From positions 310,001-374,000 of the forward strand of contig NZ_JAFEWF010000005.1 of assembly GCF_017355835.1 (NCBI RefSeq): 64,000 nt of DNA. Reading direction: 5' to 3'. This document shows, in pieces, positions 3,721 to 31,225 of the stretch. The notes below the pieces were generated by a model that saw only the letters and a list, made by a program, of their open reading frames with translations, searched no databases and was not told the DNA's origin. How positions within the stretch are numbered: position 1 is the first letter of the stretch; the number at the start of each line of letters is the position of its first letter. This DNA comes from Desertivirga brevis. GTDB taxonomy: Bacteria > Bacteroidota > Bacteroidia > Sphingobacteriales > Sphingobacteriaceae. The position numbers were made by a program, and so were the translations under genes.

Positions 3721-3759
3721 TGTAACATCTCCCGCTACTTATGCAACAGTAACATAACC
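3721..3759 (+). promoter_or_regulatory. Putative HTCS operator upstream of susC1 (site A)
   Basis: Two related half-sites lie 21 bp apart: TGTAACATCT at 3721 and TGCAACAGTAACATAAC at 3742. The same arrangement occurs upstream of 10652 and of the second susC, and a single half-site occurs upstream of 27208. Two helical turns between direct repeats suit an AraC-type DNA-binding domain such as that of the HTCS at 23021. A further inverted repeat, TTATGCA (3739-3745) and TGCATAA (3766-3772), overlaps the site. The -7 region expected about 36 bp downstream (near 3778) only matches at its TTT core. A TACTTTTG at 3846-3853 is an alternative promoter. No direct evidence of binding. Confidence 0.5.
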
Positions 3760-4040
3760 TAACGGTGCATAAATCAACGACTTTAGCATAACGAAAAGAA
3801 GGATCTTTTCTATTATAAACTAACCAAGTAAATTTATGCTAACACTACTTTTGCCGCAAACTTTATTGGCACCTCTTAATCTCGTAAAAAACACAAAATC
3901 AAGGTTAAATCAAACCTCTTTCAAGCAGAGGAAAACCTTCAATTAAATTCAATATTAAACCAGGATTCAAAAGATTGTTCCAGCTTTCAGCAGAAAGTTT
4001 ACGACAAGTAATTATAGGGCAATCTTTAAATTTTCATTGT

Positions 4041-7000
4041 ATGAAAGGACTTTTATTTAAAAACGCAATAATCCCTTTTTTGCTTTTTTTCGTTGCACAG
4101 GTAACCTTTGGTCAGAGTGCTGAAATAGTAGTTAAAGGATTGGTAAAAGATGGAAGGGGAGAAAGCCTTCCGGGTGTGAGTGTGACCGTTAAAGGAACAA
4201 CTAAAGGTGTTGTAACTAACTCTCAGGGGACCTTTACAATTAAAGCTTCCTCACCTGATAATATTCTTGTTTTCACTTTTCTGGGTTTCGATAAGGTTGA
4301 ACGAAGGATTGGCAATGACAGGAATATTAACGTCGTTATGAAAGAACATGCTAACGAATTAAACCAGGTAGTAATAATTGGATATGGAGAAGTTGCCAGG
4401 AAGGATTTAACTGGTGCGGTAGGACAAGTTAAGGTTGAGGAACTACAGAAGGCACCTGTTAGGTCATTTGAGGAAGCATTAGCTGGAAGAATTGCCGGTG
4501 TACAAGTTAGTTCACCAGAAGGACAACCGGGCATGTCTAGTGATATTGTGATCCGTGGCGCCAGTTCCATAACACAGGATAATTCTCCTTTATACGTTGT
4601 TGATGGCTTTCCGCTTGAGAGTCCCCACAACAATACATTGAACCCCTCAGAAATTGAATCTATAGAGGTATTAAAGGACGCATCAGCCTCGGCAATTTAT
4701 GGAGCGCGGGGAGCTAATGGGGTGATCATTATTACGACAAAAAAGGGCAAAGCTGGTAAACCCGTCATAAGTTACGACGGTTATTATGGCTCTCAACAAG
4801 AGATAAAGAGAGCACAATTGATGGACCCTTACGAGTTTGTGCGCTACCAATTGGAACTAGACCCGGTTGGAAAGGGAGAAGCATATACACCGCCGGGAAA
4901 AACGCTAGAATCTTATCGAGGGGTACAGGGTGTTGATTGGCAGGAGCAGGTATTCAGGGGCGCAGGTATGAACAATCACAATCTTTCTGTCAGGGGAGGA
5001 AATGAACAAACTAAATATTCCATCTCAGGCTCCGTTATGGGTCAGGACGGGATAATTATTAATTCCGGGTTCAAACGATATCAAGGGAGGATTGCATTGG
5101 ATCAGAACATTAGAAAAGACTTCAGAGTGGGGATAAATGCCAACTATGCAAATACAAGGATTAACGGAACAACACCCTCAACTTACAATGGAAACAGTAA
5201 TTCTTTAAGTCTTCTTTACAGTGTTTGGGGATATAGACCGATTAGTGCGAGTGATGTACCCCTGGAGGACCTGATTGACTCGCCAATGGATCCGGAAGTA
5301 GATGAAACTGCTGATTACCGGTACAATCCAATCCTCTCGGCCAGAAATGAGCTAAATAACAATTTCGATAACTCTCTTATTGTTAACGGATACGCGCAGT
5401 TTCCTGTTTTTAAAAACTTGACGCTAAGAGTAACAGGCGGAATTACTAGGCAAACAACACGTTTGGAAACGTTCTATAATAGTCAAACAAAGTATGGTGA
5501 TATAAATAGTGCCCAGGGAAGCAGAGGGGCAAATGGAAGGTTGACTAGTCTTGAAAAGAACGACTTCCTCAACGAGAACATCCTAACCTACAAAAGGAAA
5601 TTCAATAGGTTTCATAACCTTACTGTATTAGGAGGTTTCACCATGCAGGAACAAAAGAACCTTAGCTTTGGGTACCAGGCCTCAGGCCTGCCCAATGAAA
5701 GCCTTGGATTAAGCGGACTTGAGGAGGGAACTGCACAAACACTTAATTCGTCTCGTACAGAAAACTTCCTCATGTCGTATCTTGGAAGATTAACTTACGA
5801 TTATAAATCTAAATATTTATTTACCGCTTCTTTTCGAGCTGATGGTTCATCTAAATTTTCCCCGGCAAATAAATGGAGCTATTTTCCTTCAGGAGCTTTT
5901 GCCTGGCGTTTGAGTAATGAAAAGTTTATGAAAGGCTTCAACTTCATCAATAATGCAAAATTACGTACCAGTATAGGAGTTACAGGAAATAATCGCGTGT
6001 CAGACTTTGCTTATCTGTCGACAGTTACTTTCCCTATTTCCAGATATTATACCTTCAATAATGCTTACTTTATTGGAGCAATACCAACAACACTCGGAAA
6101 TAAAGACTTACGCTGGGAAACAACCTTACAAACGGATGCTGGTATTGATCTATCTCTTTTTAAATCAAAGTTAAACATAACCGTCGATTATTATAACAAG
6201 CGAACCTATGATCTACTACTTAATGCTCAGCTACCATCAACAACAGGTTATCAGAATGCATTTAAAAACATCGGTGAGGTTAAGAATGCCGGATGGGAAT
6301 TTGAATTGAGCACAACGAACTTTAATAAAAAGGATTTTAAGTGGAACACCTCCTTTAACATATCCTTTAACCGGAATAAAGTTGTTGAGCTTACCCAAAA
6401 TCAGGAAAGTATGCTAACCAGTATTGGTTGGGAGACTGGATATAGCAACATCCCGCCATACATTGCTAAAGTTGGTCAACCCATTGCACAGTTTTATGGC
6501 TTCAAATGGTTGGGTAACTATCAATTCAACGATTTCAATCAAAACCCCGATGGTTCATATACCTTGAAACCTTCAGTCCCAGACAATGGAACTGGAAGAG
6601 ACAAAGTTCAACCCGGAGATATTAAATACGCAGACATCAATGGTGACGGAACAGTTAACGCATCCGACAGAATGATTCTAGGAAATCCCAACCCTGACTT
6701 TATCGGCGGACTTTCAAATAACTTCAATTATAAGGGATTTGACCTCAATGTGTTCTTTCAATGGTCGTATGGAAATGAACTTTTGAATGCCAATCGTTTA
6801 GTGTTTGAAGGCAGTTCAAGACTTAGTCTTAACCAATATGCAAGCTATGCAGATCGTTGGACTCCGGAGAATCAGAACAACACCTATTTCAGAACGAAAG
6901 GATTTGGACCTACGGCTTATTCGTCCAGGATAATTGAGGACGGGTCTTACCTGCGACTAAAAACAGTGTCTCTTGGATACAGGATTCCCGCGAGGCTGTT

Positions 7001-7184
7001 AAAATCAATAAACGTCAGCTCTCTAAGAGTATATGCTTCCGCACAAAATCTGGTAACATGGACAAATTATTCAGGCCTAGACCCGGAGGTATCAACAAAA
7101 CGGGCTGCACTTACTCCAGGTTTTGACTACGCCGCCTACCCAAGAGCAAAAACTATTGTGTTTGGCCTGAATGTAGCACTTTAA
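4041..7184 (+). CDS. SusC/RagA family TonB-linked outer membrane transporter (PUL pair 1)
   Basis: This 1047-residue outer-membrane beta-barrel is predicted to import oligosaccharides with the SusD-like lipoprotein encoded 11 bases downstream. It has a signal peptide (KGLLFKNAIIPFLLFFVAQ, cleavage after FGQ), a carboxypeptidase-D-like regulatory domain (about 30-110), a TonB-box region, and a plug domain containing VIIGYGEVARKDLTGAV and YGARGANGVIIITTKKG, which are SusC hallmarks. The barrel fills the rest and ends in a short aromatic/hydrophobic strand (VFGLNVAL). The in-frame ATG at 3975 would put 22 non-signal residues in front, so 4041 is preferred. The length is typical. The substrate is inferred from the neighbouring pectin and fucose enzymes. 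Confidence 0.93.
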   Translation: MKGLLFKNAIIPFLLFFVAQVTFGQSAEIVVKGLVKDGRGESLPGVSVTVKGTTKGVVTNSQGTFTIKASSPDNILVFTFLGFDKVERRIGNDRNINVVMKEHANELNQVVIIGYGEVARKDLTGAVGQVKVEELQKAPVRSFEEALAGRIAGVQVSSPEGQPGMSSDIVIRGASSITQDNSPLYVVDGFPLESPHNNTLNPSEIESIEVLKDASASAIYGARGANGVIIITTKKGKAGKPVISYDGYYGSQQEIKRAQLMDPYEFVRYQLELDPVGKGEAYTPPGKTLESYRGVQGVDWQEQVFRGAGMNNHNLSVRGGNEQTKYSISGSVMGQDGIIINSGFKRYQGRIALDQNIRKDFRVGINANYANTRINGTTPSTYNGNSNSLSLLYSVWGYRPISASDVPLEDLIDSPMDPEVDETADYRYNPILSARNELNNNFDNSLIVNGYAQFPVFKNLTLRVTGGITRQTTRLETFYNSQTKYGDINSAQGSRGANGRLTSLEKNDFLNENILTYKRKFNRFHNLTVLGGFTMQEQKNLSFGYQASGLPNESLGLSGLEEGTAQTLNSSRTENFLMSYLGRLTYDYKSKYLFTASFRADGSSKFSPANKWSYFPSGAFAWRLSNEKFMKGFNFINNAKLRTSIGVTGNNRVSDFAYLSTVTFPISRYYTFNNAYFIGAIPTTLGNKDLRWETTLQTDAGIDLSLFKSKLNITVDYYNKRTYDLLLNAQLPSTTGYQNAFKNIGEVKNAGWEFELSTTNFNKKDFKWNTSFNISFNRNKVVELTQNQESMLTSIGWETGYSNIPPYIAKVGQPIAQFYGFKWLGNYQFNDFNQNPDGSYTLKPSVPDNGTGRDKVQPGDIKYADINGDGTVNASDRMILGNPNPDFIGGLSNNFNYKGFDLNVFFQWSYGNELLNANRLVFEGSSRLSLNQYASYADRWTPENQNNTYFRTKGFGPTAYSSRIIEDGSYLRLKTVSLGYRIPARLLKSINVSSLRVYASAQNLVTWTNYSGLDPEVSTKRAALTPGFDYAAYPRAKTIVFGLNVAL

Positions 7185-7195
7185 ATCTTTAAGAA

Positions 7196-8812
7196 ATGAA
7201 ATTGAATACAACAAATATCCTGTTTCTAACTTTGTTCGCTTTTTCATCTTGCAATGAAAAGCTAGAAACAAAACCCTCTGATTTTTTAAGCCCGGTTAAT
7301 TATTATGAAACAGAGGCTCAACTAAATGCTGCATTAAATGGTGTTTATGATCCTTTAGGGCAGGAGGCTATGTACGGCAACGGCTTATTAACTTATCTTT
7401 CTTACGGAAATGATGAGGCGATATGGAGAGCCTCGGGCCAAACCACCGGCCCTATGGTGTATAATTACGATCCTTCTGAAGCTAATATTGATAACCTGTG
7501 GACTGCCTTATATTATTGTATTAACCGGGCTAATGTACTGATCGAGAACATTGAAAAAGCTAATGCAAGCGACAGAGCAAAGGAGATCATCAGAGCCCAG
7601 GCATTGTTCCTCCGTGGATATTACTATTTCATGCTAGCTGACAACTGGGGTGCGGTTCCAATTAAACTCAGTTCTACACAGTCTGCAAACGATGTGAACA
7701 TTCCCTCGTCACCCGTAAGTGAGGTTTTCGCAAGGGCAGTTTCAGACATAGAAGCTGCGGAAGCTCTATTACCTACAGCATCGGAGTGGGGAGATAATTC
7801 GGCTGGCAGGATCTCAAAAAATACTGCAAGGGGAATTCTTGCGCGGGTTTATCTTACCATGGCAGGGGAACACCTGAAAGACACGGGTAAATATCAGGAT
7901 GCCCTTAAGTGGTCGAAGAGGGTGATTGATTCAAGGGAAAGCTCATTAAATCCAGATTATTCACAGGTGTTCATCAATCATTGCCAGGATAAATACGACA
8001 ATATCTACCGTGAATCAATGTGGGAGGTGGAGTTTTACGGAACAAAATCGGACATCTATGGTGAGGTGGGTTATAATGGCAACAGGAACGGTATTGCGTC
8101 GAACAACATAGACTTTCCGGGCTATGGATATGCCTTCTTATTTGCCACGGCAAAACTTTTCAATAAATATGAGTCAAGAGGAACCGGAGCTAATGAATCT
8201 TCACCGGACGAGAGGAGGGACTGGGCTATTGCTCCTTATACATGGAACGACAATACCAAAACGAAGGTAATGATGCCTTATAACGCTACGAGTCCCTACA
8301 ATCGTTACCCGGGAAAATGGCGCAGGGATCTTGAAACTAATTTGCCCAGGAACAAGAACTACAGTGGTGTTAATTTTCCACTGCTTAGATACGCCGACGT
8401 TCTTTTAATGTATGCAGAATCTGAGTTTAGAGTTAATGGTGCCACTGCCGATGCATATAACGCAATTAACCAGGTAAGAAGACGTGCTTACGGCAAGCTG
8501 AAACCTGGGGCATCTAATTTATCAGAAGCTGACCTATCTGGTTTAAGTGATGAGGCATTTTTTAAGGCTATTGTGGATGAACGGATGCGGGAGCTGGCAT
8601 TTGAATGTTTGCGAACTCACGATCTCAAGCGATGGGGACTGCTAGTTAGTACGCTAAAAGAATTTGCCGCAGACATAAAGCAAAATGCACCTGCAAATCG
8701 AAAATTCTCATCAATAGTTGGTGATAATGTTCAGCCAAGACATTTCTACTATCCGATTCCCAGTAGGGAAATATCGTTGAATAAGGCTATAGAACAGAAC
8801 AGCAATTGGTAA
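7196..8812 (+). CDS. SusD/RagB family outer membrane lipoprotein (PUL pair 1)
   Basis: This 538-residue surface lipoprotein caps the preceding SusC and binds glycan. The signal sequence ends in a lipobox with C19 (FAFSSC). The N-terminal SusD-like region (YYETEAQLNAALNGVYDPL) is followed by TPR-like helices (AQALFLRGYYYFMLADNWG is a family hallmark) and the C-terminal SusD domain with VNGATADAYNAINQVRRRA and DERMRELAFECLRTHDLKRW. It starts 11 bases after susC and is followed 12 bases later by the DUF5017 lipoprotein, so the three form one operon. Confidence 0.93.
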   Translation: MKLNTTNILFLTLFAFSSCNEKLETKPSDFLSPVNYYETEAQLNAALNGVYDPLGQEAMYGNGLLTYLSYGNDEAIWRASGQTTGPMVYNYDPSEANIDNLWTALYYCINRANVLIENIEKANASDRAKEIIRAQALFLRGYYYFMLADNWGAVPIKLSSTQSANDVNIPSSPVSEVFARAVSDIEAAEALLPTASEWGDNSAGRISKNTARGILARVYLTMAGEHLKDTGKYQDALKWSKRVIDSRESSLNPDYSQVFINHCQDKYDNIYRESMWEVEFYGTKSDIYGEVGYNGNRNGIASNNIDFPGYGYAFLFATAKLFNKYESRGTGANESSPDERRDWAIAPYTWNDNTKTKVMMPYNATSPYNRYPGKWRRDLETNLPRNKNYSGVNFPLLRYADVLLMYAESEFRVNGATADAYNAINQVRRRAYGKLKPGASNLSEADLSGLSDEAFFKAIVDERMRELAFECLRTHDLKRWGLLVSTLKEFAADIKQNAPANRKFSSIVGDNVQPRHFYYPIPSREISLNKAIEQNSNW

Positions 8813-8824
8813 CCCTAAATTAAA

Positions 8825-9739
8825 ATGATGCTAAAAAACATTAAAATAATACTTGTTGGCTCCATTGCCAGCTTGATACTTTCTTCTTGTGATAAAGATC
8901 TGTCTACCCCGGAGTTCGAGGTGTCAACAAGATCAACTACTTTCAAAAAAGGAGAACTGATAACGTTTAACATTTCAGGAAACCCTGACGTGATCCGCTT
9001 CTATTCAGGTGAGCAAGGTAAGAAATACGAATTCAGCCGCCGTGACAGTCTGAAGGGAAAGCTACTACTACAATTCTCCACCTTTGCTCAAAATTCAGGA
9101 TCGCAAGAGAATTCTCTTAAAATACTTTATTCCACAGATTTTAAGGGCGCCTATAACATAGCGGGGGTTCAGGCGGCAACATGGAATGATGTAACGTCAA
9201 AAGCAATACTTTCAAACGGTACCGACAATGTACCTTCCGGTCAAATTGATCTAACTAATATAGTACCTGCAACTGGTCCCGTGTATTTTGCATTCAGGAA
9301 AAGAGACGAGCAAAGTGCAACTCAAAAACCCAGAGCATGGACTATTAGGTCCTTTCAATTAAACCTCCTTAATGAACAAGATAACTTTTCTTATCCTTTA
9401 ACGGATTTGACAAATGCTGGCTGGACTGCAGTAGATGTTCTTAATTCTACATACCGATGGGCTATAAACCTAACCGCAACATCACCAGCACTAAGCATTG
9501 GAGGTGGGAATATTAATACAGCTGCTAATGAGGATTGGGTGATAACCAAAGTTCTATATCCGAATGCGATTAAACCAGATCCAGCAATACCTGTAAAAGG
9601 TGTGGATACTAAAGTAGAATCCTATTCATATTCCTTCGCAACCCCCGGGGTATATAAGCTGGCTTTTGTAGCATCAAACATGACACCTGACAAGCAAAAA
9701 GAGGTAGTAAAGGAACTTGAGCTAACGATAACAGATTAA
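8825..9739 (+). CDS. DUF5017 domain lipoprotein, probable surface glycan-binding protein
   Basis: This is a 304-residue lipoprotein with a lipobox at C22 (ILSSC). The mature protein is beta-rich: an N-terminal stretch (VSTRSTTFKKGELITFNISG) looks like an Ig/PKD-like domain that recurs near the end (YSFATPGVYKLAFVASN), around a central DUF5017-type module. Genes in this third position of susCD operons usually encode surface glycan-binding proteins; binding here is inferred from position. No catalytic motif is visible. There are two adjacent ATG codons (8825 and 8828) and the first is used. It ends the first operon, before a strong bidirectional terminator. Confidence 0.8.
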   Translation: MMLKNIKIILVGSIASLILSSCDKDLSTPEFEVSTRSTTFKKGELITFNISGNPDVIRFYSGEQGKKYEFSRRDSLKGKLLLQFSTFAQNSGSQENSLKILYSTDFKGAYNIAGVQAATWNDVTSKAILSNGTDNVPSGQIDLTNIVPATGPVYFAFRKRDEQSATQKPRAWTIRSFQLNLLNEQDNFSYPLTDLTNAGWTAVDVLNSTYRWAINLTATSPALSIGGGNINTAANEDWVITKVLYPNAIKPDPAIPVKGVDTKVESYSYSFATPGVYKLAFVASNMTPDKQKEVVKELELTITD

Positions 9740-9773
9740 AAGAGCCTTTTTTTAATTAATATATTGTTGATCC

Positions 9774-9804: not shown

Positions 9805-9810
9805 TAGAAT

Positions 9811-10239
9811 TTAACGCAATAGATTAAACTCGGCCTTTTCATCTTTCTTTCCCCTTAGAAGATTAAAAAGGCTGACAAGATCAAAAGCACCGGGGCTTCC
9901 CGGTTTGTAGATATCTTTATATCCCGGTTCCTTAGCTATTTCTTCTGGGGATGGTGTTCTGAAGCTCATTGACCAGCCAGGAAACAACCGCCTTTCTATG
10001 TGTCCCTCTTTTAAAATTGACAAATTATGATGCCGTTTATCCTGCTTTATTTTTTCGAATACCGCTTTTATTAATATTTCATCTCCTTCCACCAATTGAA
10101 GGAATTTATTATCAAAATATACCAACATACCTGTAATGTTAGTTTCTTGATTGTGTCTTTGTGAACTTGTCAGAATAGATTTAAGAGAAGCATGATCCAT
10201 GTTTCCTTTTGCCTGACTCCTATAAATGAGATAGTACAT
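9811..10239 (-). CDS. BLUF domain blue-light photoreceptor
   Basis: This is a 142-residue single-domain protein that should bind FAD and sense blue light. Family landmarks are present: the N-terminal Tyr strand (MYYLIYRSQA), the Asn of HNQETNITGMLVYF, the Gln of FLQLVEG, and the Trp-Met pair in FPGWSMSF. A short alpha-helical C-terminal tail follows and there is no output domain, so it must act on a partner protein. I chose the ATG at 10239 because the BLUF first strand begins there; an in-frame ATG at 10275 would add 12 residues. It lies inside the PUL on the opposite strand, and no obvious partner is adjacent. A LOV kinase and a bacteriophytochrome are encoded about 25 kb away. Confidence 0.9.
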   Translation of the reverse strand: MYYLIYRSQAKGNMDHASLKSILTSSQRHNQETNITGMLVYFDNKFLQLVEGDEILIKAVFEKIKQDKRHHNLSILKEGHIERRLFPGWSMSFRTPSPEEIAKEPGYKDIYKPGSPGAFDLVSLFNLLRGKKDEKAEFNLLR

Positions 10240-10363
10240 GATGGTTAGTCGATTGAAAGCTATTGAATTTCCCAAGGGGAAGTTATCATGTCTAACAAGG
10301 TTCTTTTCTGCCTGTTTTAAGATACCCTTATAAAATTTGATGAAATAAATGAACTGATTTTTT

Positions 10364-10387: not shown

Positions 10388-10396
10388 CAAGAAATC

Positions 10397-10435
10397 AGCA
10401 ACATCTGCTCAAGTTTCTGCAACCTTCACAATAGC
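10397..10435 (+). promoter_or_regulatory. Putative HTCS operator upstream of the beta-helix gene (site B)
   Basis: Half-sites AGCAACATCT (10397) and TGCAACCTTCACAATAG (10418) are 21 bp apart, like those upstream of both susC genes. A -7-like TACATTTTTG begins at 10453, 35 bp after the second half-site. The spacing to the -7 region agrees with the other sites (35-38 bp), which suggests an activator binding just upstream of the polymerase. Confidence 0.5.
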
Positions 10436-10651
10436 TTGCAAAGCTGCATTTATACATTTTTGTTGCGGGCTCCATAGGTCCCAAAACAATACTAACCATT
10501 TAAACAGACTGAGAATATGAAAAAGGACCTTCACTTTCCTCTAAGCGGCCCTGCCATGCTCTACTTTATAAGTTTCTGGATCCAAAAGCAGATATAAGAC
10601 ATCCTGACAATATCAATCTCTTTACTACCCAATACTCTAATAATAAATTAT

Positions 10652-13633
10652 ATGAAAAACTTACTTTTACTCATTTCACTTCTATTTGTACTCTCCTCCA
10701 AAGCCCAAACTAAGTACTATGTCTCTTTAACAGGAAATGACCAATCTAACGATGGTAAAACGCCAGATTCCCCCTGGCAAACTATTGAAAAAGTTAATGA
10801 GATGATGGGCAGTTTTAACCCGGGAGACTCGGTGCTATTTAAACGGAATGAAGAATTCAAAGGGGAACTGGTGATCACTAAGTCAGGAACTTCGGGTGCT
10901 AGAATAAATTTCGGAAGTTATGGTAATGGCAATAAGGCTATAATAAATGGTGCTATACCTCTTACTACCTGGTCGGAGATGCCTGGAAATATTTGGGCAA
11001 CTACTTACTCAGGTTCACTTACAACTTTAAATAATTTACTGGCTGCCGATGTTAGTCAGCAAATAGGACGATGGCCTAATCCGAATGCAACTAACACGGG
11101 TTATAACTCTGTAGATGCATTTGTAGGGAATACGCAGTTAACTGACGCGGCCTTAGCTGGTCAGAATTTTTCTGGCGCTACCGCGGTTGTTAGAGTGCGT
11201 CTATTCATCCTTAATAAGGCATCCATAATATCCCAATCAGGTTCTACACTTACATTTTCAGGTGTTGGTACTAACTATACCATGACAGCTGGGGATGGTT
11301 ACTTCATTCAAAACCATATCTCTACCCTGGATCAGCAGGGAGAGTGGTGCTTCGATCCTGCTACCAAAAAAATTTACATCTATTCAACCACCGATCCAAA
11401 TACTATTAAAACTGAGATACCCTTTAAAAACAATACTTTAAGTGGAAACAACATCAGCAACGTCAGTATAACCGATCTTAAGTTTATTAACGCCAACTCG
11501 TATGGAATTAAGATTGAGAACTCCAACGGGGTTAAAATTTCAAATTGCGAATTCTTCAACTCGCATAATGCAATCTATTTGAATACTATTCAAAACTCGG
11601 AGGTAGATCATAATACTATCAGGAATACCAATAATAACGCTATATGGATAGCAGGCAGCTTTTACAACTGTAACTACAATACTATTCTAAATACAGCGCT
11701 TCGTCCAGGTATGGGAGATCCAAATAATAACCAGTACAATGCTATTAATATGGTCGGAACGGATGCTTTGGTAAAAGGTAATCGCATCGATAAAGTTGGC
11801 TATTGTGGGATCAGATTTGAGGGAAGCCGATTAACTTTACAAAACAATGTTATTAATGAGTTTGCACTAACCAAAGCAGACGTGGGTGGGATATATTCGT
11901 TCAAAGGTTTTGCACCAGTAGGTTACGGATATGGCAATAATGTTATTACAGGGAACATTATAAGCAATGGCAAACCTAATCTCTATGGAACAAGGGCCAT
12001 ACCTGTAAATACAAATTATGCTGTCGGTATTTATCTGGATCAAAGCACATTGAACAATACAGTGGCAAGCAATACTGTATATAACTGTAACAGTGCCGGT
12101 TTTATGATAAACGAAGGGGCTAACAATCATGTAGTCCGCGACAATGTATTCTATAATAACATGTTTGGCTTTGCATATTTCCCTACTTCCACCAGCGCAA
12201 AGAATTTAACAGTGAAAAATAATATATGGTTCAGTAAGCACCCCTCGCAAATTCCCGGGATGTCGCAGGCTACAAACCTGGATTATATGAAAAACTTTGG
12301 CAATATAGACAGCAATTATTATGCTCAACCTTTTGAGCCAGACAGTACACTAATTCAAACTAATGAAAATTATTCGACCAGGATCAATAAGGTTTACTCG
12401 TTACAAGATTGGAGGAAGCTAGGTTATGATATAAATTCATATCTTTCGGTTTATAAGATTGCGCCTTACTCGATCACAAGCTCAGGCTCGAATACGATTA
12501 CAAATAGTGCTTTCGGAACCGGAATTACCGGTTGGACTTTAACTCCCTCAAGCGGTAACTTTACTCCCGTTTATGACAATAATAATGTTTTAGACGGCGG
12601 CAGCCTGAAACTGACAACAGTAGGAGCCACCGGCCCAAATACATCCAGAGTAGCAACGGCTATTGGGAATGTGGAATATGGCAAATTCTACCAGGTTACA
12701 TTTTCAATAAAGGGAACTACTGATACCTCGAGGTTAAAGGTTACACTTTTTGCAGGGCAACCGGTTGCAAAGTACCGTTACGTGAAAACAAGTATACAAC
12801 GGAAGGAGGTGACACTTACTTTCACTCCTGTAGCCAGTATTAATAATGTCACACTGCAATTAACCCTTAATGATCCAGGCAACCAGATATGGATTGATAA
12901 TGTCATGTTTAAACCTTTAACCACAATCAACACTGATCCTGATGATCATTTGGTATTTCATGTAAACGATGAAGCTAATTCTAAACTTATAAATCTTGGA
13001 GCTACCGCGTATCAGGATGCAAAAGGAAACGGATATACTGGAACTATTTCTCTTCCGCCATATTCATCAATAGTACTAATAAAATCAAATACTGTTCTTC
13101 CTCTCAGGATGACCAAGTTTTACGGCTCGGCCAACGGATGTGATGCGAATCTTAACTGGACTACGGAAAATGTGCAAAGAGTTGAAGGGTTTGAGGTGGA
13201 GAGCAGTAACAATGGGAAGGATTTTCGTAGATTGAGCTTTATCAATGCGAACAAGACGGGAACATATGATATACTGTTGAATCAGGTAGACAACAGATCT
13301 TACTACAGATTAAAGATAATTGATTCAGACGGAACTAGTCGCTTCAGTGAGGTTATTAACATCCAGACAGTTTGTAAAAGACAAGGACTAACAATTTATC
13401 CTAATCCCGTTAAGTCAGAAGCTGTTGCTGTGATTCCACCTCCTGTTGGTTCCAAAGTACTTTATAAGATCCTGAACTCAGCTGGCCAGGTTTTGGTAGC
13501 TAAGGAAATAAACCTGACAAAGGGCACCAATTTTTTTAATCTGGATACTTCAACATTACAAACAGGTCATTATGTATTCTTCGTTCAGCAGCCTGGGAGT
13601 TCCGGTCTCTCTACATCGTTTATAAAGCATTAA
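10652..13633 (+). CDS. Right-handed beta-helix protein with CBM-like domain and T9SS C-terminal domain
   Basis: This is a 993-residue secreted protein. After a signal peptide (LLLLISLLFVLSSKAQ) comes YYVSLTGNDQSNDGK, the usual opening of extracellular beta-helix proteins. A helix of N- and I-rich coils runs to about residue 500 (repeats such as NSNGVKISNCEFFNSHNAIYL). From about 613 to 755 there is a jelly-roll, CBM4/9-like module (GITGWTLTP ... WIDNVMFKP). The C-terminus has a fibronectin-like segment and a type IX sorting domain with YPNPV at 916-920. It is therefore probably exported to the cell surface or medium. A polysaccharide lyase or glycosidase acting on pectin is likely from context, but I see no definitive family motif. 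It starts a transcription unit with its own candidate operator. Confidence 0.8.
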   Translation: MKNLLLLISLLFVLSSKAQTKYYVSLTGNDQSNDGKTPDSPWQTIEKVNEMMGSFNPGDSVLFKRNEEFKGELVITKSGTSGARINFGSYGNGNKAIINGAIPLTTWSEMPGNIWATTYSGSLTTLNNLLAADVSQQIGRWPNPNATNTGYNSVDAFVGNTQLTDAALAGQNFSGATAVVRVRLFILNKASIISQSGSTLTFSGVGTNYTMTAGDGYFIQNHISTLDQQGEWCFDPATKKIYIYSTTDPNTIKTEIPFKNNTLSGNNISNVSITDLKFINANSYGIKIENSNGVKISNCEFFNSHNAIYLNTIQNSEVDHNTIRNTNNNAIWIAGSFYNCNYNTILNTALRPGMGDPNNNQYNAINMVGTDALVKGNRIDKVGYCGIRFEGSRLTLQNNVINEFALTKADVGGIYSFKGFAPVGYGYGNNVITGNIISNGKPNLYGTRAIPVNTNYAVGIYLDQSTLNNTVASNTVYNCNSAGFMINEGANNHVVRDNVFYNNMFGFAYFPTSTSAKNLTVKNNIWFSKHPSQIPGMSQATNLDYMKNFGNIDSNYYAQPFEPDSTLIQTNENYSTRINKVYSLQDWRKLGYDINSYLSVYKIAPYSITSSGSNTITNSAFGTGITGWTLTPSSGNFTPVYDNNNVLDGGSLKLTTVGATGPNTSRVATAIGNVEYGKFYQVTFSIKGTTDTSRLKVTLFAGQPVAKYRYVKTSIQRKEVTLTFTPVASINNVTLQLTLNDPGNQIWIDNVMFKPLTTINTDPDDHLVFHVNDEANSKLINLGATAYQDAKGNGYTGTISLPPYSSIVLIKSNTVLPLRMTKFYGSANGCDANLNWTTENVQRVEGFEVESSNNGKDFRRLSFINANKTGTYDILLNQVDNRSYYRLKIIDSDGTSRFSEVINIQTVCKRQGLTIYPNPVKSEAVAVIPPPVGSKVLYKILNSAGQVLVAKEINLTKGTNFFNLDTSTLQTGHYVFFVQQPGSSGLSTSFIKH

Positions 13634-13692: not shown

Positions 13693-13731
13693 TGCATCAA
13701 TAAGAAAGGTATTTGCAACATTCGCATAAGG
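13693..13731 (+). promoter_or_regulatory. Putative HTCS operator upstream of susC2 (site C)
   Basis: Half-sites TGCATCA (13693) and TGCAACATTCGCATAAG (13714) are 21 bp apart. A -7-like TAATTTTA lies at 13752-13759, 38 bp after the second half-site. Downstream, the leader carries TAACCAAGTAAA (13789-13800), identical to 3821-3832 in the susC1 leader. The rest of the 13634-13810 spacer contains nothing else I can support. Confidence 0.5.
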
Positions 13732-13810
13732 AAAAACACTGCAGGAGAGCTTAATTTTACACCATAGATCTCAGCTGGGTCTTTACATTAACCAAGTAAA
13801 CTAACGAATT

Positions 13811-16795: not shown

Positions 16796-16814
16796 CCAGT
16801 TAAAGGAATTAATT

Positions 16815-18407: not shown

Positions 18408-18411
18408 TAAG

Positions 18412-19677: not shown

Positions 19678-19693
19678 TGAAACAAGGCAGGAT

Positions 19694-21037
19694 ATGATGA
19701 GAAAGATTCTCCTTACATGTTTCTATCTGCTTTTTTCAATTCAGCTTTACAGCCAACAGCGGGGAAATAAGCCGGAAAGGGAAAAATGGTTTAGTAGCTT
19801 GGGCTTTGGGTTGTTCATACATTGGAGTATCGATTCACAAATTGGAGCTGTGATCAGTCACTCGCTAGCTGGGGCAAGTCCTGATTTCCGAAAACGTTTT
19901 TTCAACGAACTACCGAAGACTTTCAATCCCTTACGATTTAATCCTGATGAATGGGCCTCATTGGCTAAGTTGGCAGGAATGCGATACGTTGTATTTACGG
20001 CAAAGCATCATTCAGGTTTTTGCATGTTTAAAACTAATTCAACAACCTTTAATATCGCAAATACTCCTTATTCGCATGATATTACAAAGGAGGTTATTAC
20101 AGCCTTCAGGAAACAAGGGATAGCAATTGGATTATATTTCTCACCCGAAGACTTTTATTATCTACATCAAACAGATGTTCCGATCGGACGTCTTCAAAAC
20201 CCTTTACATTATCCAGCGCAAAATGTTGGATTAATGAAATATGACAAAATCCAACTAAAGGAGTTGTTAAGTAATTATGGGAAGATCGACATCATTTTTT
20301 TAGATGGTCCGGCAGAAGGTTTAAAAGAATATTGCTGGGAACTGCAACCGGATATTGTTGTAACGAGAGGTCATATAACAACTCCCGAGCAAAAAGTGCC
20401 TGATACTTCGATTCCATCCCCCTGGGAGAGCTGCCTGACTATGGGCACAGACTGGCAATACAAGCCCACAAACGATCTGTTTAAGTCAGGTACCGAATTA
20501 ATAAATACATTAATAGAAACACGCGCAAAAGGGGGTAACCTTTTATTGAATATAGGACCAAAACCAAATGGTACGATCAGAGAGGAGGAGGAATCTAGGT
20601 TAAGGGAGCTAGCGCTATGGAACTTTGCTAATAGCGAGGCTATTCATGGTGTAACTTCTGCTCCTACATTGAAAGATGGTAATATTTGGTATAGCTGCTC
20701 TCCAAACGGTAAAACTATTTACGCCTACATTACCAAAAATATTTGGCAATATGGGGAAAGAAAGGAAATTGTTTTCCCCTCAATTACTGGTAATGAAAAT
20801 ACCACAGTTAGTATTTTGGGATACGAAAGCAATTTTGTAGAATACCGGCAAAACTTTGATGCCTCGATCAAGATACAAACGGGCCCCCTTGGCCTTATTG
20901 TAAGCGCAGTGAATGGGCAGCGATTCTATACCAATAACAAATGGCCAAATCCGCTTGTGTTTAAAATCTCTGGCGCCCATTTCAGGAAACAGCCTTCTTC
21001 CAAAGTAAATAAATCATCGCTCGACGGAGCTCAATAA
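19694..21037 (+). CDS. GH29 alpha-L-fucosidase (first copy)
   Basis: This is a 447-residue exported retaining glycosidase predicted to release terminal L-fucose. After the signal peptide (KILLTCFYLLFSIQLYSQ) come the GH29 signatures GFGLFIHWS, YVVFTAKHHSGFCMF, IAIGLYFSPED and IIFLDGPAEG, where D204 aligns with the catalytic nucleophile. GGNLLLNIGPKPNG marks the end of the barrel, and a C-terminal beta-sandwich follows. The ATG pair at 19694/19697 follows an AAGGCAGG stretch that could serve as a ribosome binding site; a longer frame back to 19604 overlaps the SGNH gene and lacks signal character. It differs considerably from the second GH29 at 31226. Confidence 0.88.
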   Translation: MMRKILLTCFYLLFSIQLYSQQRGNKPEREKWFSSLGFGLFIHWSIDSQIGAVISHSLAGASPDFRKRFFNELPKTFNPLRFNPDEWASLAKLAGMRYVVFTAKHHSGFCMFKTNSTTFNIANTPYSHDITKEVITAFRKQGIAIGLYFSPEDFYYLHQTDVPIGRLQNPLHYPAQNVGLMKYDKIQLKELLSNYGKIDIIFLDGPAEGLKEYCWELQPDIVVTRGHITTPEQKVPDTSIPSPWESCLTMGTDWQYKPTNDLFKSGTELINTLIETRAKGGNLLLNIGPKPNGTIREEEESRLRELALWNFANSEAIHGVTSAPTLKDGNIWYSCSPNGKTIYAYITKNIWQYGERKEIVFPSITGNENTTVSILGYESNFVEYRQNFDASIKIQTGPLGLIVSAVNGQRFYTNNKWPNPLVFKISGAHFRKQPSSKVNKSSLDGAQ

Positions 21038-21047
21038 ATGATATAAA

Positions 21048-22817
21048 ATGAAAACACACTTATATAAACGCTTAGTTCTGATCTTAATTCTGTTTCTTCC
21101 CGCACTAGCAAATGGACAGAATAATAACTACTACGTCCTTGACATGGTCCACCACAATCCGGGTGAACCGTCAACAAAAAGTGCTTTCACAGATCCATCT
21201 TTCCTAAAGGAGAAGGGTTATAACGGACAAGTAGTTAACGACTTTACTTTTGCCCATGCCGCTCTTACCTTTGACAAGCTTAGTAAAGAAATATTCCCTG
21301 ACGGCTCGGAAGAAAGGAAATGGGTTGAGCAAGCTGCTAAGAAGGTAAAAGAAAATATCGCAGAGGCTCACGCAGCAGGAATAAAGATATATTACTTCAC
21401 AGACATTATAGTTCTTCCAAAAAGGCTAGTAGACATCTATAAGGATGAGATCACGGATAAGGATGGAAAAATCTCCTTTGAGCGGCCTAAGACAGTAGAA
21501 ATTCACAGAATGATGTTGAATGAGCTTTTTGATACCTTTCCTGACCTTGATGGCCTTGTAATCAGAACAGGTGAAACATACCTAAACAACGTACCCCATC
21601 ACACTGGCAACGGACCTATTACAAACGGACCTGCAAGTCATGTAAAACTAATCAATCTTCTACGTGATGAAGTTTGTGTTAAACGCAACAAAATGCTTTT
21701 TTATCGCACGTGGTCGTTTGGCGGAATGCACGAGCAGCCAGACTATTACCTTAAAGTTACAGACCAAATACAGCCTCATCCCAATCTTGTGTTTGCTATT
21801 AAACATACGAAGGGGGATTACCAGAGAACCTTCGATTTTAATCCAACTCTCACTTTAGGTAAACACCCACAAATTATTGAGGTTCAATGCCAGAGAGAAT
21901 ATGAAGGAAAGGGCGCTTATCCCGACTACGTGATGGAGGGGGTGATAAATGGATTTGAAGAATATTCTATGAACAAACCACAACCGGGATACAAGAGCCT
22001 TAAAGAAATTAAGTCCAGCCCCAATTTCCGGGGCGTTTGGTCATGGTCTCGAGGCGGAGGCTGGGTCGGACCCTACATCACCAACGAATTTTGGTGCAGG
22101 CTTAATGCTCTAGTGATTAGCAAATGGGCATTAGATCCTAAGCAGTCAGAAGAAGAAGTATTCAATAAGGTGATCACAGAAATGGGAATTCAAGGGAAGT
22201 CGCGTGAAAGGTTTCGTGAACTTGCTTTACTATCGGCAAAAGCTGTCATCAGAGGCCATTCGAGTGTAAAGTACCCTTTTCAGAACAGCTGGACGTGGTG
22301 GATGCGCGATGAATTCCTATCTGGAACGGACCCCAATTATAACCCGCGGCAATTCTCCTCGGAAGGGCTACTTTATAAGGCATTTACACAGTACTATAAA
22401 GATGGTATACTTCATGGAGCCGTCCAGGAGAAGTATGAGGCGGTAGAGCTCTGGAAAAATATAGAAAAGCTTAGTCGTGGCATCAAAATGAAGGACAAGG
22501 AAGACGAATCTTATGTAAGGGTTTCATCAACCTATGGAATGCTGTTACATCAGATCATAGCTGAAGGCTGGAAAATCATGGCTTTAGGTTTTGAAGGAGA
22601 TAAAACCGGCAAATACGACATAAAAGAAATGCACCAGGCATTATTGAATTATGATAAATACTGGAAACTTTACAAGAATTTCAAGGAGACAAACCCATCG
22701 TCTGCAACACTTTACAAACCTTACTCATTTGAGTACATAGCCCCGACCTATCATGCTGAAAAGGGAATGGGTGCTTCAGTAAATTACTACAGGAAAATTA
22801 TAGCAGATAAGCAATAA
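21048..22817 (+). CDS. Secreted GH67-like TIM-barrel protein of uncertain family
   Basis: This is a 589-residue exported protein (signal peptide LYKRLVLILILFLPALANG). It does not carry a signature I can name with certainty. Parts resemble the alpha-glucuronidase GH67 core: QCQREYEGKGAYPDYVMEG recalls the QEYxG...M..V stretch, and NEFWCRLNALVISKWALDP recalls the N..FxRLAW.P segment after the barrel. Acidic residues in LDGLVIRTGE and TFPDLDG are candidate catalytic positions. It lies in the second susCD operon, 10 bases after GH29. Removal of a uronic acid side chain is a reasonable guess. It could also be a family not yet characterised. Confidence 0.55.
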   Translation: MKTHLYKRLVLILILFLPALANGQNNNYYVLDMVHHNPGEPSTKSAFTDPSFLKEKGYNGQVVNDFTFAHAALTFDKLSKEIFPDGSEERKWVEQAAKKVKENIAEAHAAGIKIYYFTDIIVLPKRLVDIYKDEITDKDGKISFERPKTVEIHRMMLNELFDTFPDLDGLVIRTGETYLNNVPHHTGNGPITNGPASHVKLINLLRDEVCVKRNKMLFYRTWSFGGMHEQPDYYLKVTDQIQPHPNLVFAIKHTKGDYQRTFDFNPTLTLGKHPQIIEVQCQREYEGKGAYPDYVMEGVINGFEEYSMNKPQPGYKSLKEIKSSPNFRGVWSWSRGGGWVGPYITNEFWCRLNALVISKWALDPKQSEEEVFNKVITEMGIQGKSRERFRELALLSAKAVIRGHSSVKYPFQNSWTWWMRDEFLSGTDPNYNPRQFSSEGLLYKAFTQYYKDGILHGAVQEKYEAVELWKNIEKLSRGIKMKDKEDESYVRVSSTYGMLLHQIIAEGWKIMALGFEGDKTGKYDIKEMHQALLNYDKYWKLYKNFKETNPSSATLYKPYSFEYIAPTYHAEKGMGASVNYYRKIIADKQ

Positions 22818-22919: not shown

Positions 22920-23020
22920 CAAAAAAGATACTTTTAGCACAGAAACGGATAACTTGAATTAAAGAAGCCAAACCCGTTATTTAATAGGAAGAAAGTATAT
23001 TAATAACCAACCAGTTTAGG

Positions 23021-26000
23021 ATGTCAGTTAAAGGATTTTTATTTATCTTCTTGTACGTAGCCGTTCTTACCTTTAAGGAGGCTGGCGCTCAGGAAGAAAA
23101 AGCAATAATAAGTCCTGGCGTACGCTTCGATCATTATTTCAGTAACGAGGGACTGCCAGACAACCGGGTGCGCAATCTTTTCCAGGACAGCAGAGGATAT
23201 TTGTGGGTTGGAACAATGAATGGGCTTTGCCGTTTTGATGGTTATTCGTTTAGGAAATTTTACAAAAACAAGGCGCCAAAAGCTATTACCACAAGTTGGG
23301 CTTATTCTATTACTGAGGATGATAACAGTGATTTGTATATTGGTTCGAGGTACGGATTAAGCAAGTTTGTAAGGAACACAGAACAATTTTTTGAGATAAA
23401 TGTGCCGGGATCAAGCACAGACGTTGTTTCTGCTCTCCTTTTTCATGATAGAAAGCTATGGATTGGAACCTCAAAAGGCCTGTCCCTGTATGATCCTAAC
23501 ACAAGGAAAACTAAAACTTTAAGCTCTTTTCCATTCAAAAATGGAGTGAAAAAAATAATACAGTCCTGGGGCGACTGCCTATGGTTAGCGTGCGACCAGG
23601 GCGTAGTTCGTTTCAATACCAAAACGCTTGCCTTCCAACTATTTGACATAGATATCAAACCAAACCCTTATGGAGACAGGATCTGGTCTTTGTACGAGGA
23701 TCAGAGGTCGCTATATATTGGAACCGGTGGAGATGGAATTATTAAACTGGAGTTCGATGCCGAGCAAAATAAATACACCGATTTTAATCGTTTTGAGCAG
23801 CTTTTAACAAACGGTTCGGAGCTTAGGAACCTTCAGGTTTTCGATATTGTTAAATGGCGTAATGGAGAACTTTGGCTTGCTACTGAAGATGGACTGGCCA
23901 GGATAAGGAGCTTGAATAAAAAAACGAGTTTAGAATTTTTCAGAAATAACCCACTTGACAAGAATAGCATCAGCAATAATATAATTTACAGGCTGCTAAT
24001 TGACCGTACAGGTGTACTTTGGTGTGGCACAGAACTCGGGTTAAATAAATCAGATCTAAATCTCCTCGCATTTCAGTATTATGCGTTCAAGGGAATAGGC
24101 ATTGCTGATCAGGTAAGGGCTATTGCATCTGAAGATGGAATAAATATTTACCTCGGTACGGCTAGTTCAGGGCTTTATAAATACAATACAAGTTCTGGCC
24201 AAACATCGCTTCTTAAACTTGGTGATGAACACCTTTCCTATAATGCTTATCGCTCACTAAATTTTAATAACGGAAATCTTTGGGCGGGAACTCTAGGGGG
24301 AACCATGAAAATTACTGCTATTAATACAACCAGCAGTATAAAAAACCTTAATGCACAGGCGAGTTTTGCTACCCTAACGGATTCCAGAGGCAATTTATGG
24401 ATTGGAACCAATAAGGGATTACTTAAATACGACGCCCAAGGAAACAAAGTAGAATTGAAGGGAAGACACAATATTCCGACGCTTATAAAAAATGGTTTTG
24501 TGAGGCAGATCTACGAAGATAAGAAGGGGAATTTGTGGCTGGGCTTTGAGAATGGAGGTTTAATAGTACTCGACCCGCAATCTGGATCGTATTTCCATTT
24601 CAATGCCAGGACACCGGAGCATGAATTGCTTGGCTCTAATGTCTTAGCAATTGCGGAAGCCCCCGCAAATGTTTTTTGGGTTGGAACTGAATCAGGACTC
24701 AACAGAATCACTTTAAAAAGCAACAGGATTTCTGATTATACAGTTAAAAGGTATACTGATGCCGAGGGGTTACCTGATAAATCTATTATCGGCATCTTGA
24801 ATTCTGGAGATGGTCTTTTGTGGATATCAACGATCAAGGGCCTGAGCAGATTTGACATTCTTAAGGAAACGTTTCAAACCTATTTGTCAAATGTAAATTT
24901 TAGTATCGGAAGTTGTTATAAAGTTTCACCTGACAAATTGCTTTTCGGTACAAGCAATGGCTTTATTTCATTTAACCCCAGTCTGATTCCAAAGGCACAA
25001 AATCCACCGACGGTTGCACTATCTGAATTAAAACTCTTCAATCAACCTGTTGAGATTGGTCAGGAGTTCAATAAAGATATCATCCTTAAACAAAGTATCT
25101 CATCTACCCAAGAAATTAAGCTGAACTACCATAACAACGTGTTCACCATAGGCTTTACAGCATTACATTTTTCAAATCCTGATAAAAACAAATACTCTTA
25201 TAAAATGGAGGGATTTGACAAGAACTGGATCGAAGCAGATGCAGCGTCGCGCAATGCAACTTACACAAACCTCGATGCTGGAACATACTATTTTAAAGTA
25301 AGAGCCTCAAACTACATGAATAATTGGAGTAGAAGTGCGGCAGTACTGAAGGTAACTGTTCTTCCACCGCCTTGGAAAACCTGGTGGGCTATTGTGCTTT
25401 ATATTACTCTTTTTAATATACTGCTTTACATTCTGATCAAATATGTTTTGATTCAATCCCGGCAGCGTCAGGAGATCGAGTACCAAAAAATCGAAAAGGA
25501 ACAATTGAAGCGATTGAACGAAATGAAAGTTAACTTCTTCACAAACATTTCTCATGAATTCAGGACCCCGCTAACCTTGATCTCGGCACCGGTAGAGGAA
25601 CTGATGGGTAACGCGAGTCTAGGTAAGGAGGAAAAACAAAAGGTGAGCTTTATTTATAGAAACTGCAAGAAATTACTTTTGTTGCTCGATGAATTGATGA
25701 CCTTTCAGAAGGCAGAGCAAGGAATGCTTAAACTCAAGGCCGTTCCTATGGACATCACCGGATTCCTTCATGCAATCTTCGTAAATTTTCAACCTCTGGC
25801 GGAACGGAACAAGATCAATTTGAAACTGGAGAATGTTGTTGGGAAAAAAATAATGGCATTTGATCCAGGAAAGCTTGAAATGGTATTAAATAACTTGATC
25901 TCTAATGCATTTAAATTCACACCAGAAGGAGGAGAGATCTCCATAATTGTTGCTTTGGACCAGGATGAGTTGACTGAAGTTCCACAATTGTCAATAACGG

Positions 26001-27079
26001 TGGAGGACAATGGAAAAGGAATTCCTGGCAGCGACTTACCTTATATTTTCGAACGTTTTTATTCTGAGCACAATAAACAGGGAACGGGTGTGGGATTAGC
26101 ACTAACGAGAAACCTTGTAGAGTTGCATAACGGTACGATTAAAGTTGACAGTATTCCGGGAAAAGGCACAAGCTTTAAAATCGTACTTCCTTGCAAAAAC
26201 GATAACCAGCAGAGTTCTTGTCCGGGAAGTATTCTTCAGGAATTTGCGCCTATGACAATAGATAGTAAGGAGGTAATGTTTATTGCGAAGTCTGAAAATC
26301 AGAAGAAAACTAAGCTTTTGATCGTAGAGGATAATAAGGAGATTTTAGATTATCTGGAGATGCTCTTTGAATCACAATATTCCGTGGCCCGGGCAATGAA
26401 TGGATTGGAGGCTTTGGAAATAATTAAGGAGAATGAACCTGAACTGATTATTAGCGATATGATGATGCCGCTAATGGATGGAAAAGAACTTTGCAAACAA
26501 ATAAAATCAGATCTTAACACTAGTCATATTCCATTTATTCTCCTTACCGCGAAAACGACTGATGATGACAAGTTACAAGGTTTACAAACTGGTGCAGACG
26601 ACTATATCGCAAAGCCCTTCCATCCAGAAATTTTAAAGGTTAAGGCGGAAAATCTTATAGAATCTAAGCGCCGTCTGATTGAAAAATATAGGGGAGATGG
26701 AGTAATAATTCCTAAAGATATAGCAAAGAATCCCCTTGACGAACAATTCCTTCAAAAGGTTCTTGACACAATTAACGCTAACCTGGCCAATGATGAGTTT
26801 TCTGTAGAAGACCTTGGAGCTGCAGTATTTATGAGCCGCAGTCATTTGTTTAGAAAACTAAAGGCAATAACAGGTCAAACGCCCATAGAATTAATTTATC
26901 AGGTGAGGATCAAGCATTCCATGGATTTGCTATTGCAGAGAAAATTATCCATATCAGAAATAGCCTATGAAGTAGGCTTCAAAAATCCGTCTTCATTCAC
27001 CTCATCTTTTAAGAAACAATACGGGAAATCACCGAAGGAATACTTAGGTGATGTAATTAAAGAGCAACAAGCGGAATAA
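23021..27079 (+). CDS. Hybrid two-component system sensor/regulator (HTCS)
   Basis: This 1352-residue one-protein signalling chain senses a glycan product in the periplasm and activates PUL transcription. A signal sequence is followed by a periplasmic sensor of repeated propeller units (YLWVGTMNGLCRFDG, LWIGTSKGLSLYDP and many like them) up to about residue 700. A Y_Y_Y domain (YFKVRASNYMNNWS), a membrane helix at about 788-812, HisKA with H845 (SHEFRTP), HATPase (about 945-1060), a receiver domain with D1146 (ISDMMMP), and an AraC-type HTH (about 1245-1345, ISEIAYEVGFKNPSSF) follow. It is the only HTCS in the window and the likely reader of the repeated sites at 3721, 10397, 13693 and 27109. 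Confidence 0.95.
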   Translation: MSVKGFLFIFLYVAVLTFKEAGAQEEKAIISPGVRFDHYFSNEGLPDNRVRNLFQDSRGYLWVGTMNGLCRFDGYSFRKFYKNKAPKAITTSWAYSITEDDNSDLYIGSRYGLSKFVRNTEQFFEINVPGSSTDVVSALLFHDRKLWIGTSKGLSLYDPNTRKTKTLSSFPFKNGVKKIIQSWGDCLWLACDQGVVRFNTKTLAFQLFDIDIKPNPYGDRIWSLYEDQRSLYIGTGGDGIIKLEFDAEQNKYTDFNRFEQLLTNGSELRNLQVFDIVKWRNGELWLATEDGLARIRSLNKKTSLEFFRNNPLDKNSISNNIIYRLLIDRTGVLWCGTELGLNKSDLNLLAFQYYAFKGIGIADQVRAIASEDGINIYLGTASSGLYKYNTSSGQTSLLKLGDEHLSYNAYRSLNFNNGNLWAGTLGGTMKITAINTTSSIKNLNAQASFATLTDSRGNLWIGTNKGLLKYDAQGNKVELKGRHNIPTLIKNGFVRQIYEDKKGNLWLGFENGGLIVLDPQSGSYFHFNARTPEHELLGSNVLAIAEAPANVFWVGTESGLNRITLKSNRISDYTVKRYTDAEGLPDKSIIGILNSGDGLLWISTIKGLSRFDILKETFQTYLSNVNFSIGSCYKVSPDKLLFGTSNGFISFNPSLIPKAQNPPTVALSELKLFNQPVEIGQEFNKDIILKQSISSTQEIKLNYHNNVFTIGFTALHFSNPDKNKYSYKMEGFDKNWIEADAASRNATYTNLDAGTYYFKVRASNYMNNWSRSAAVLKVTVLPPPWKTWWAIVLYITLFNILLYILIKYVLIQSRQRQEIEYQKIEKEQLKRLNEMKVNFFTNISHEFRTPLTLISAPVEELMGNASLGKEEKQKVSFIYRNCKKLLLLLDELMTFQKAEQGMLKLKAVPMDITGFLHAIFVNFQPLAERNKINLKLENVVGKKIMAFDPGKLEMVLNNLISNAFKFTPEGGEISIIVALDQDELTEVPQLSITVEDNGKGIPGSDLPYIFERFYSEHNKQGTGVGLALTRNLVELHNGTIKVDSIPGKGTSFKIVLPCKNDNQQSSCPGSILQEFAPMTIDSKEVMFIAKSENQKKTKLLIVEDNKEILDYLEMLFESQYSVARAMNGLEALEIIKENEPELIISDMMMPLMDGKELCKQIKSDLNTSHIPFILLTAKTTDDDKLQGLQTGADDYIAKPFHPEILKVKAENLIESKRRLIEKYRGDGVIIPKDIAKNPLDEQFLQKVLDTINANLANDEFSVEDLGAAVFMSRSHLFRKLKAITGQTPIELIYQVRIKHSMDLLLQRKLSISEIAYEVGFKNPSSFTSSFKKQYGKSPKEYLGDVIKEQQAE

Positions 27080-27108
27080 ATGCACTTTGGTCATCTGAAA
27101 ACAGTTCC

Positions 27109-27126
27109 TGCAACATTTCCAACAGC
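27109..27126 (+). promoter_or_regulatory. Putative HTCS half-site upstream of beta-helix glycosidase (site D)
   Basis: TGCAACATTTCCAACAGC matches the second half-site of sites A-C at most conserved positions. The partner half-site 21 bp upstream is poor here. It lies 37 bp before a perfect -7 element at 27146-27153, the same spacing as at the other sites. Confidence 0.45.
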
Positions 27127-27145
27127 CAGAGAGCTCAATGAAAAA

Positions 27146-27153
27146 TACATTTG
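27146..27153 (+). promoter_or_regulatory. Promoter -7 element TACATTTG
   Basis: TACATTTG matches the Bacteroidota TAnnTTTG consensus exactly. It lies about 50 bases before the chosen start of the downstream gene and 37 bp after site D. A clear -33 element is absent, as expected for an activator-dependent promoter. Confidence 0.55.
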
Positions 27154-29478: not shown

Positions 29479-29498
29479 CCTTCTAAATAATACACTAC

Positions 29499-31223: not shown

Positions 31224-31225
31224 TT

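Follow-up and report, generated by a model that had tools for sequence, protein, structure and literature searches.

Predicted tandem operators of a hybrid two-component system upstream of four transcription units in a polysaccharide utilization locus of Desertivirga brevis

In a 64,000-nt stretch of Desertivirga brevis DNA (GCF_017355835.1, NZ_JAFEWF010000005.1, positions 310,001-374,000 of the forward strand; hereafter the window), a polysaccharide utilization locus (PUL) carries a 21-bp direct repeat upstream of each of four transcription units. With a probability of about 0.9, the four sites are tandem operators of the single hybrid two-component system protein (HTCS) of the locus, encoded at 23021-27079, and would serve to activate the four units. 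This confidence rests mainly on the ranking of the sites by a matrix built from other species, on the identities of the HTCS DNA-binding domains, and on the conservation of the half-sites. A preliminary description of the window had proposed the AraC-type output domain of the HTCS as the binder; the co-variation of this domain with the motif and the spacing reported by Ravcheev et al. (2013) both support that proposal of a predicted binding.

Seven relatives were used for the cross-species tests: G007, G001, G146, G318, G084, G368, and G372. HTCS orthologues were found in seven of the 399 sampled genomes of the family of G001 (E up to 1e-250); G001, Desertivirga xinjiangensis, is the nearest named relative. 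Additional searches covered the genera of G007 (orthologues in two of three genomes) and G146 (two of 149) and added no new orthologue. Identity to the HTCS of the window is 70% in G007, 66% in G001, 50% in G146, G318, and G084, and 41% in G368 and G372. The whole PUL is present in G007 with the same gene order as in the window.

Architecture of the sites

Each site consists of two 16-bp half-sites in direct orientation, the second starting 21 bp, or two helical turns, after the first. The downstream half reads TGCAACATTnnCATnA, with TGCAAC nearly invariant, while the upstream half is degenerate and reads approximately TGnAACATTTnC. All four positions given for TGCAAC in the preliminary description (3742, 10418, 13714, and 27109) were verified, as was the related half-site exactly 21 bp upstream of the first three (TGTAACATCT at 3721, AGCAACATCT at 10397, and TGCATCA at 13693). 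The preliminary description listed the upstream half for those three sites; a degenerate version, TGGTCATCT, is also present at 27088, so that the direct repeat occurs at four of four sites in the window; in G001 the upstream half of site 4 reads TGGTCATTT. When the halves of 14 sites were compared with each other, identity was highest at an offset of 21 (0.51, versus 0.11-0.39 at the remaining offsets from 10 to 30). The downstream half contains two conserved boxes, TGCAAC and CAnnA, separated by roughly one helical turn. The AraC-type domain has two helix-turn-helix (HTH) units, which suits this spacing.

The two halves are not equally constrained, and strong binding might be confined to the downstream TGCAAC half, the upstream half making a loose auxiliary contact. 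This variant of the HTCS-operator reading is unlikely. TGCAAC does not vary among the 14 sites, whereas agreement between the upstream and downstream halves is limited to 6-9 of 16 positions in the four sites of the window, the three of G007, and the two of G001 (7, 8, 9, and 7 in the window), and the upstream half of site 4 differs between the window and G007 at half of its positions (0.50 identical). However, all 14 sites also have G at position -20, with T or A at -21; identity of the upstream half is 0.75-0.88 in four of the five comparisons of window sites with G007 and G001, and the halves of operator 4 in G146 agree at 12 of 16 positions.

Chance level and conservation across species

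Within the window, a search for two TGCAACAT halves 20-22 bp apart with at most three mismatches in total yielded four pairs in 64 kb on both strands. The pairs with two mismatches are exactly the first three sites, a result that is partly circular because the consensus was drawn from them. At the window's own plus-strand rate, the probability of TGCAAC in all four upstream regions is about 7e-5. A 6-mer with at least three G/C was common to four such regions in 47 of 2000 simulated sets, and a common hexamer alone is therefore just moderately surprising. The decisive evidence for this candidate motif being real is the comparison across species.

An external matrix was built from 10 sites of G007, G001, G146, and G318, with the window sites excluded; its training set holds orthologues of sites 1, 3, and 4 and none of site 2. 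Over 64 kb and both strands, this matrix ranked the four window sites first (31.4, 24.4, 23.0, and 21.2 bits), followed by a match of 13.6 bits that overlaps site 4 and then by one of 11.7 bits. In the opposite direction, a matrix of the window sites was applied to the PUL regions of the relatives. The top matches were PUL promoters in G007 (31.7, 25.3, and 13.5 bits) and G001 (26.7 and 21.5 bits), the third match of G007 being at chance level by this matrix since the highest score in 12 simulated 38-kb sequences was 13.5. The best match was also a PUL promoter in G146 (promoters at 20.6, 15.2, and 13.3 bits) and in G318 (15.0 and 13.3 bits, with the third site outside the seven matches listed), the lower ranks in both genomes being mixed with chance matches, while in G084 a PUL promoter came third, at 14.5 bits. 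Conservation upstream of orthologous operons was found in G007, G001, G146, and G318 and was weak in G084.

Fourfold-degenerate sites are 0.55-0.75 divergent between the window and G007 in all 16 genes compared, which is near saturation. The downstream halves of sites 1, 3, and 4 are nevertheless 0.81, 0.88, and 0.81 identical to those of G007 and the upstream halves 0.88, 0.75, and 0.50 identical, while the 59 bp upstream of the sites are 0.29-0.42 identical. The retention of half-sites while silent sites are near saturation indicates selection. For operator 4, identity to G001 is higher, at 0.81 (upstream) and 0.94 (downstream). Operator 1 is kept in G007 and, over a different SusC, in G001; since the SusC that follows the G001 copy, in which the 5-bp spacer is also kept, has only about 30% identity to its counterpart in the window, the operator is no by-product of SusC conservation. 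Recent transfer of the SusC/SusD pairs that are 88-90% identical between the window and G007 was considered and rejected, because silent divergence is as high in these pairs as in the neighbouring genes.

These comparisons bear on the proposal that the similarity is due to chance, or to shared ancestry of promoters without operator function. In its favour are the simulated hexamer frequency and the inheritance of operators 1, 3, and 4 together with their promoters. Against this, the half-sites were kept at near-saturated silent divergence, operator 2 fits the external matrix at 23.0 bits although the training set holds no orthologue of it, and the 21-bp periodicity is exact. Chance or mere ancestry is a most improbable explanation.

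Specificity across genomes

The specificity of the motif was gauged genome-wide in the genomes of the relatives. A sequence-only model (R1) was built from 15 sites and run over 15 whole genomes, with 150 of 1365-4801 first-look candidates scored per genome. Among scored candidates in G007, G001, G146, and G318, all 11 matches that exceed 20 bits fall within the PUL, a partly circular result in that these sites trained R1; the best matches outside the PUL were 15.3, 13.5, 13.9, and 14.4 bits, respectively. In the window, R1 (E up to 10) finds four matches, all of them the four sites, and thus no operator before the HTCS gene itself. Homologues of SusC1 are widespread (129 of 399 genomes, E up to 1e-250). 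In the 15 best SusC loci, an R1 match was present at all three that have the HTCS, which are loci that trained R1, and within 1.5 kb of none of the 12 SusC homologues (56-57% identical) in other loci. An IUPAC pattern run over 10 genomes was too strict and missed G007 and G001; it gave two matches each in G146 and G318, all in the PUL, and two in G084, of which one falls in the PUL and the other in a coding frame. The backward control of this pattern gave one match in the 10 genomes (in G146).

Several results weigh against the HTCS-operator reading. R1 was trained on the PUL sites that it finds, and only the 150 candidates per genome were scored. It reaches 19.0 bits in G012, the best of eight genomes without a listed orthologue, and its top match in G084 (21.0 bits) falls inside a large coding frame, while the PUL sites of G084 itself score only 11.7-16.2 bits. 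A second model (R2), built from the four window sites alone, is weak genome-wide: PUL sites make up six of its 19 matches in four genomes, and five of the 11 PUL sites are missed. With the window matrix, the top matches in G084 (15.9 bits), G368 (15.7 bits), and G372 (15.3 bits) fall elsewhere than at promoters of the PUL with the HTCS. No counterpart of operator 2 is among the top matches of G007 or G001, site 1 has a poor -7 box, and the resemblance between the two halves is limited, as described above.

A further repeat was found in G084 (L134, 1502-1532), where TGCAACTT is followed at 21 bp by TGCAACAT. It scores 17.2 bits with R1, is outside the training set, and lies about 55 bp upstream of the gene for a large protein whose secretion-tail match is weak, approximately 27 kb downstream of the HTCS gene. 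This repeat likely marks an extra member of the predicted regulon.

The HTCS as candidate binder

As the preliminary description stated, the PUL has one HTCS, at 23021, by Pfam. Its AraC-type HTH_18 domain occupies residues 1267-1342, the receiver has the conserved SHIP motif, and the best PDB match of the C-terminal part is 12aw, a hybrid two-component system protein (6.4e-24). The HTH is the most conserved of the four HTCS parts compared in G007, G001, G146, G318, and G084. Its identity to that of the window is 95% in G007, 92% in G001, and 72-75% in G146, G318, and G084, and falls to 40-42% in G368 and G372, two genomes in which no credible motif site was found (R1 best matches of 15.3 and 17.9 bits). 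The sensors of G368 and G372 are 42% identical to that of the window, compared with 44-45% for G146, G318, and G084. The motif thus tracks the DNA-binding domain, as judged from two genomes that have a diverged HTH and sensors nearly as similar.

Direct repeats of the AraC type are not exclusive to HTCSs, and a stand-alone AraC protein, another factor, or a global sugar regulator could co-regulate the PUL through these sites. The window does encode a second HTH_18 protein outside the PUL, at 39946-41004. Matches above 20 bits are, however, restricted to the PUL in four relatives, a global factor would be expected at many sites, and the presence of the motif follows the HTCS DNA-binding domain; a different regulator is very unlikely. 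The protein at 39946-41004 (minus strand) has an odd arrangement, with a PAS domain and the HTH_18 match in the middle of the protein (157-226).

Promoter geometry and proposed mechanism

The primary-sigma consensus reported for Bacteroidota is TAnnTTTG at -7 with TTTG near -33 (PMC7366714). The -7-like elements given in the preliminary description for sites 2, 3, and 4 were confirmed (TACATTTTTG, TAATTTTA, and TACATTTG; Table 1). For site 1, where only a TTT core near 3778 had been claimed, the correct reading is a weak box with four of six consensus letters, GACTTTAG at 3779. The best single offset for all four sites is +37 from the T of TGCAAC, with 4, 5, 4, and 6 of 6 letters. Over offsets from -20 to +70, the highest TAnnTTTG score is at +37 whether the four window sites or 12 sites are taken, and the observed sum of 56 was reached by none of 20,000 shifted sets (null mean 34.8). 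With the -7 box 37 bp from the T of TGCAAC, the downstream half-site ends at about -33. We infer from this layout an activator standing in for the upstream promoter element.

In the proposed mechanism, sensing of a sugar signal in the periplasm would lead to phosphorylation of the HTCS receiver. Two HTCS DNA-binding domains would then sit side by side on one face of the DNA, and the downstream domain would contact RNA polymerase and replace the -33 element. SusC1/SusD1, both beta-helix units, and the SusC2/SusD2 operon would in this way be activated jointly.

Relation to known HTCS regulons

Ravcheev et al. (BMC Genomics 14:873, PMC3878776) used phylogenetic footprinting to predict, for 16 Bacteroides HTCSs, direct repeats upstream of PUL operons, with a mean distance of 21 bp and a dimer bound on one DNA face. 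The sites of HTCS_Man are 16 bp with a 5-bp spacer, and those of HTCS_Rgu-1 are 12 bp with a 9-bp spacer. The window resembles these regulons in having an AraC-like HTCS and a 21-bp direct repeat upstream of PUL operons; it differs in belonging to another lineage, and the likeness is one of spacing and layout. The SusR-like motifs in the same report are also direct repeats upstream of PUL operons, but these are centred 67 or 77 bp from each other and belong to a regulator other than an HTCS. Receiver-HTH fragments of BT4124 and BT4663 were assayed by electrophoretic mobility shift on susCD promoters from the PULs to which they belong (mBio 2024, PMC11253607); binding was shown for fragments with interface substitutions and is described as relieved by them. 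The HTCS of the window shares the SHIP motif of the receiver with these proteins; the words repeat and spacing are absent from the main text of that report. PMC12125979 was rejected as an HTCS precedent because it deals with Vibrio XylRA. A literature search returned no paper on HTCS motifs of this lineage and none on an HTCS binding motif in Pedobacter.

The predicted operators are a clear new example of a control layout known from gut Bacteroides. They provide a concrete candidate operator for an HTCS outside Bacteroides, with half-site, spacing, and promoter geometry defined, alongside a few relatives that show the DNA-binding domain and the motif changing together. This helps in assigning PUL regulons with no more than the sequence and in deciphering the recognition code of HTCS domains.

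Genes and evolution of the locus

The HTCS gene sits with two SusC/SusD pairs, two Alpha_L_fucos proteins, a GH3, a GH88, and two beta-helix proteins (Table 1), which places the locus among PULs. This gene set suggests that the putative target glycan contains fucose and uronic acid. For SusC1, the list of open reading frames gives a start at 3975, but ATG 4041 is the likely one.

Table 1. Coordinates of predicted operators, -7-like elements, and genes in the window; protein families are Pfam assignments.
Feature	Position	Strand	Details
Operator 1	3721..3757	+	Halves TGTAACATCTCCCGCT (3721) and TGCAACAGTAACATAA (3742), 21 bp apart; upstream of susC1-susD1-DUF5017
Weak -7-like box, site 1	3779..3786	+	GACTTTAG; at +37; weakest of four; 0.22 identical to G007 (ungapped)
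Transcription unit 1	4041..9739	+	SusC-like; SusD-like 7196-8812; DUF5017 protein 8825-9739
Hairpin then T-run after unit 1	9774-9797		Fold -12.6 kcal/mol, z -3.27; probable terminator
Operator 2	10397..10433	+	Halves AGCAACATCTGCTCAA (10397) and TGCAACCTTCACAATA (10418); external matrix 23.0 bits
-7-like element, site 2	10453..10462	+	TACATTTTTG
Transcription unit 2	10652..13633	+	Secreted right-handed beta-helix protein with Por_Secre_tail
Operator 3	13693..13729	+	Halves TGCATCAATAAGAAAG (13693) and TGCAACATTCGCATAA (13714); 0.75 and 0.88 identical to G007
-7-like element, site 3	13752..13759	+	TAATTTTA; same box in G007
Transcription unit 3	13811..22817	+	SusC 13811-16795; SusD 16815-18407
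Unit 3, remaining genes		+	GDSL esterase 18412-19677; Alpha_L_fucos protein 19604-21037; conserved unknown 21048-22817
HTCS, proposed binder	23021..27079	+	1352 aa; Reg_prop/Y_Y_Y sensor, HisKA, HATPase_c, Response_reg, HTH_18
Operator 4	27088..27124	+	Degenerate TGGTCATCTGAAAACA (27088) and TGCAACATTTCCAACA (27109); starts 9 bp past HTCS stop codon
-7 box, site 4	27146..27153	+	TACATTTG; identical in window, G007, and G001
Transcription unit 4	27181..34811	+	Beta-helix protein, GH3, Alpha_L_fucos, GDSL esterase, L-rhamnose mutarotase, GH88

Units 1 and 2 are separated by a BLUF photoreceptor gene on the minus strand (9811-10275), which has the DUF5017 gene on one side and the beta-helix gene on the other. 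At the corresponding position, G007 has a 110-bp junction without a BLUF gene and, by eye, a similar hairpin. Operator 2 is on the beta-helix side of the BLUF insertion and, as it was not found in G007, was probably gained in the window (or lost in G007). Tentatively, the stable unit of the PUL may be the operator set together with the HTCS, with SusC/SusD cassettes exchanged beneath it and new operators arising where an insertion splits a transcription unit. The PUL of G001 (L090, L001) has retained the enzymes (65-83%), the HTCS, and operators 1 and 4, while identity to the window is about 30% for both of its SusC/SusD pairs.

The 589-aa protein encoded at 21048-22817 has no match in Pfam, NCBIfam, or PDB. 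Identity to its counterparts is 77-80% for G007 and G001 and 64-66% for G146, G318, and G084; its gene directly precedes that of the HTCS in the window and in all five of these genomes, and has its own operator copy in G146 and G318. A second strong hairpin with a T-run, also a probable terminator, lies at 3597-3638 (z -7.44). A phytochrome-type histidine kinase is encoded at 35311-37536 (minus strand) and, with the BLUF gene, brings the light sensors in the window to two.

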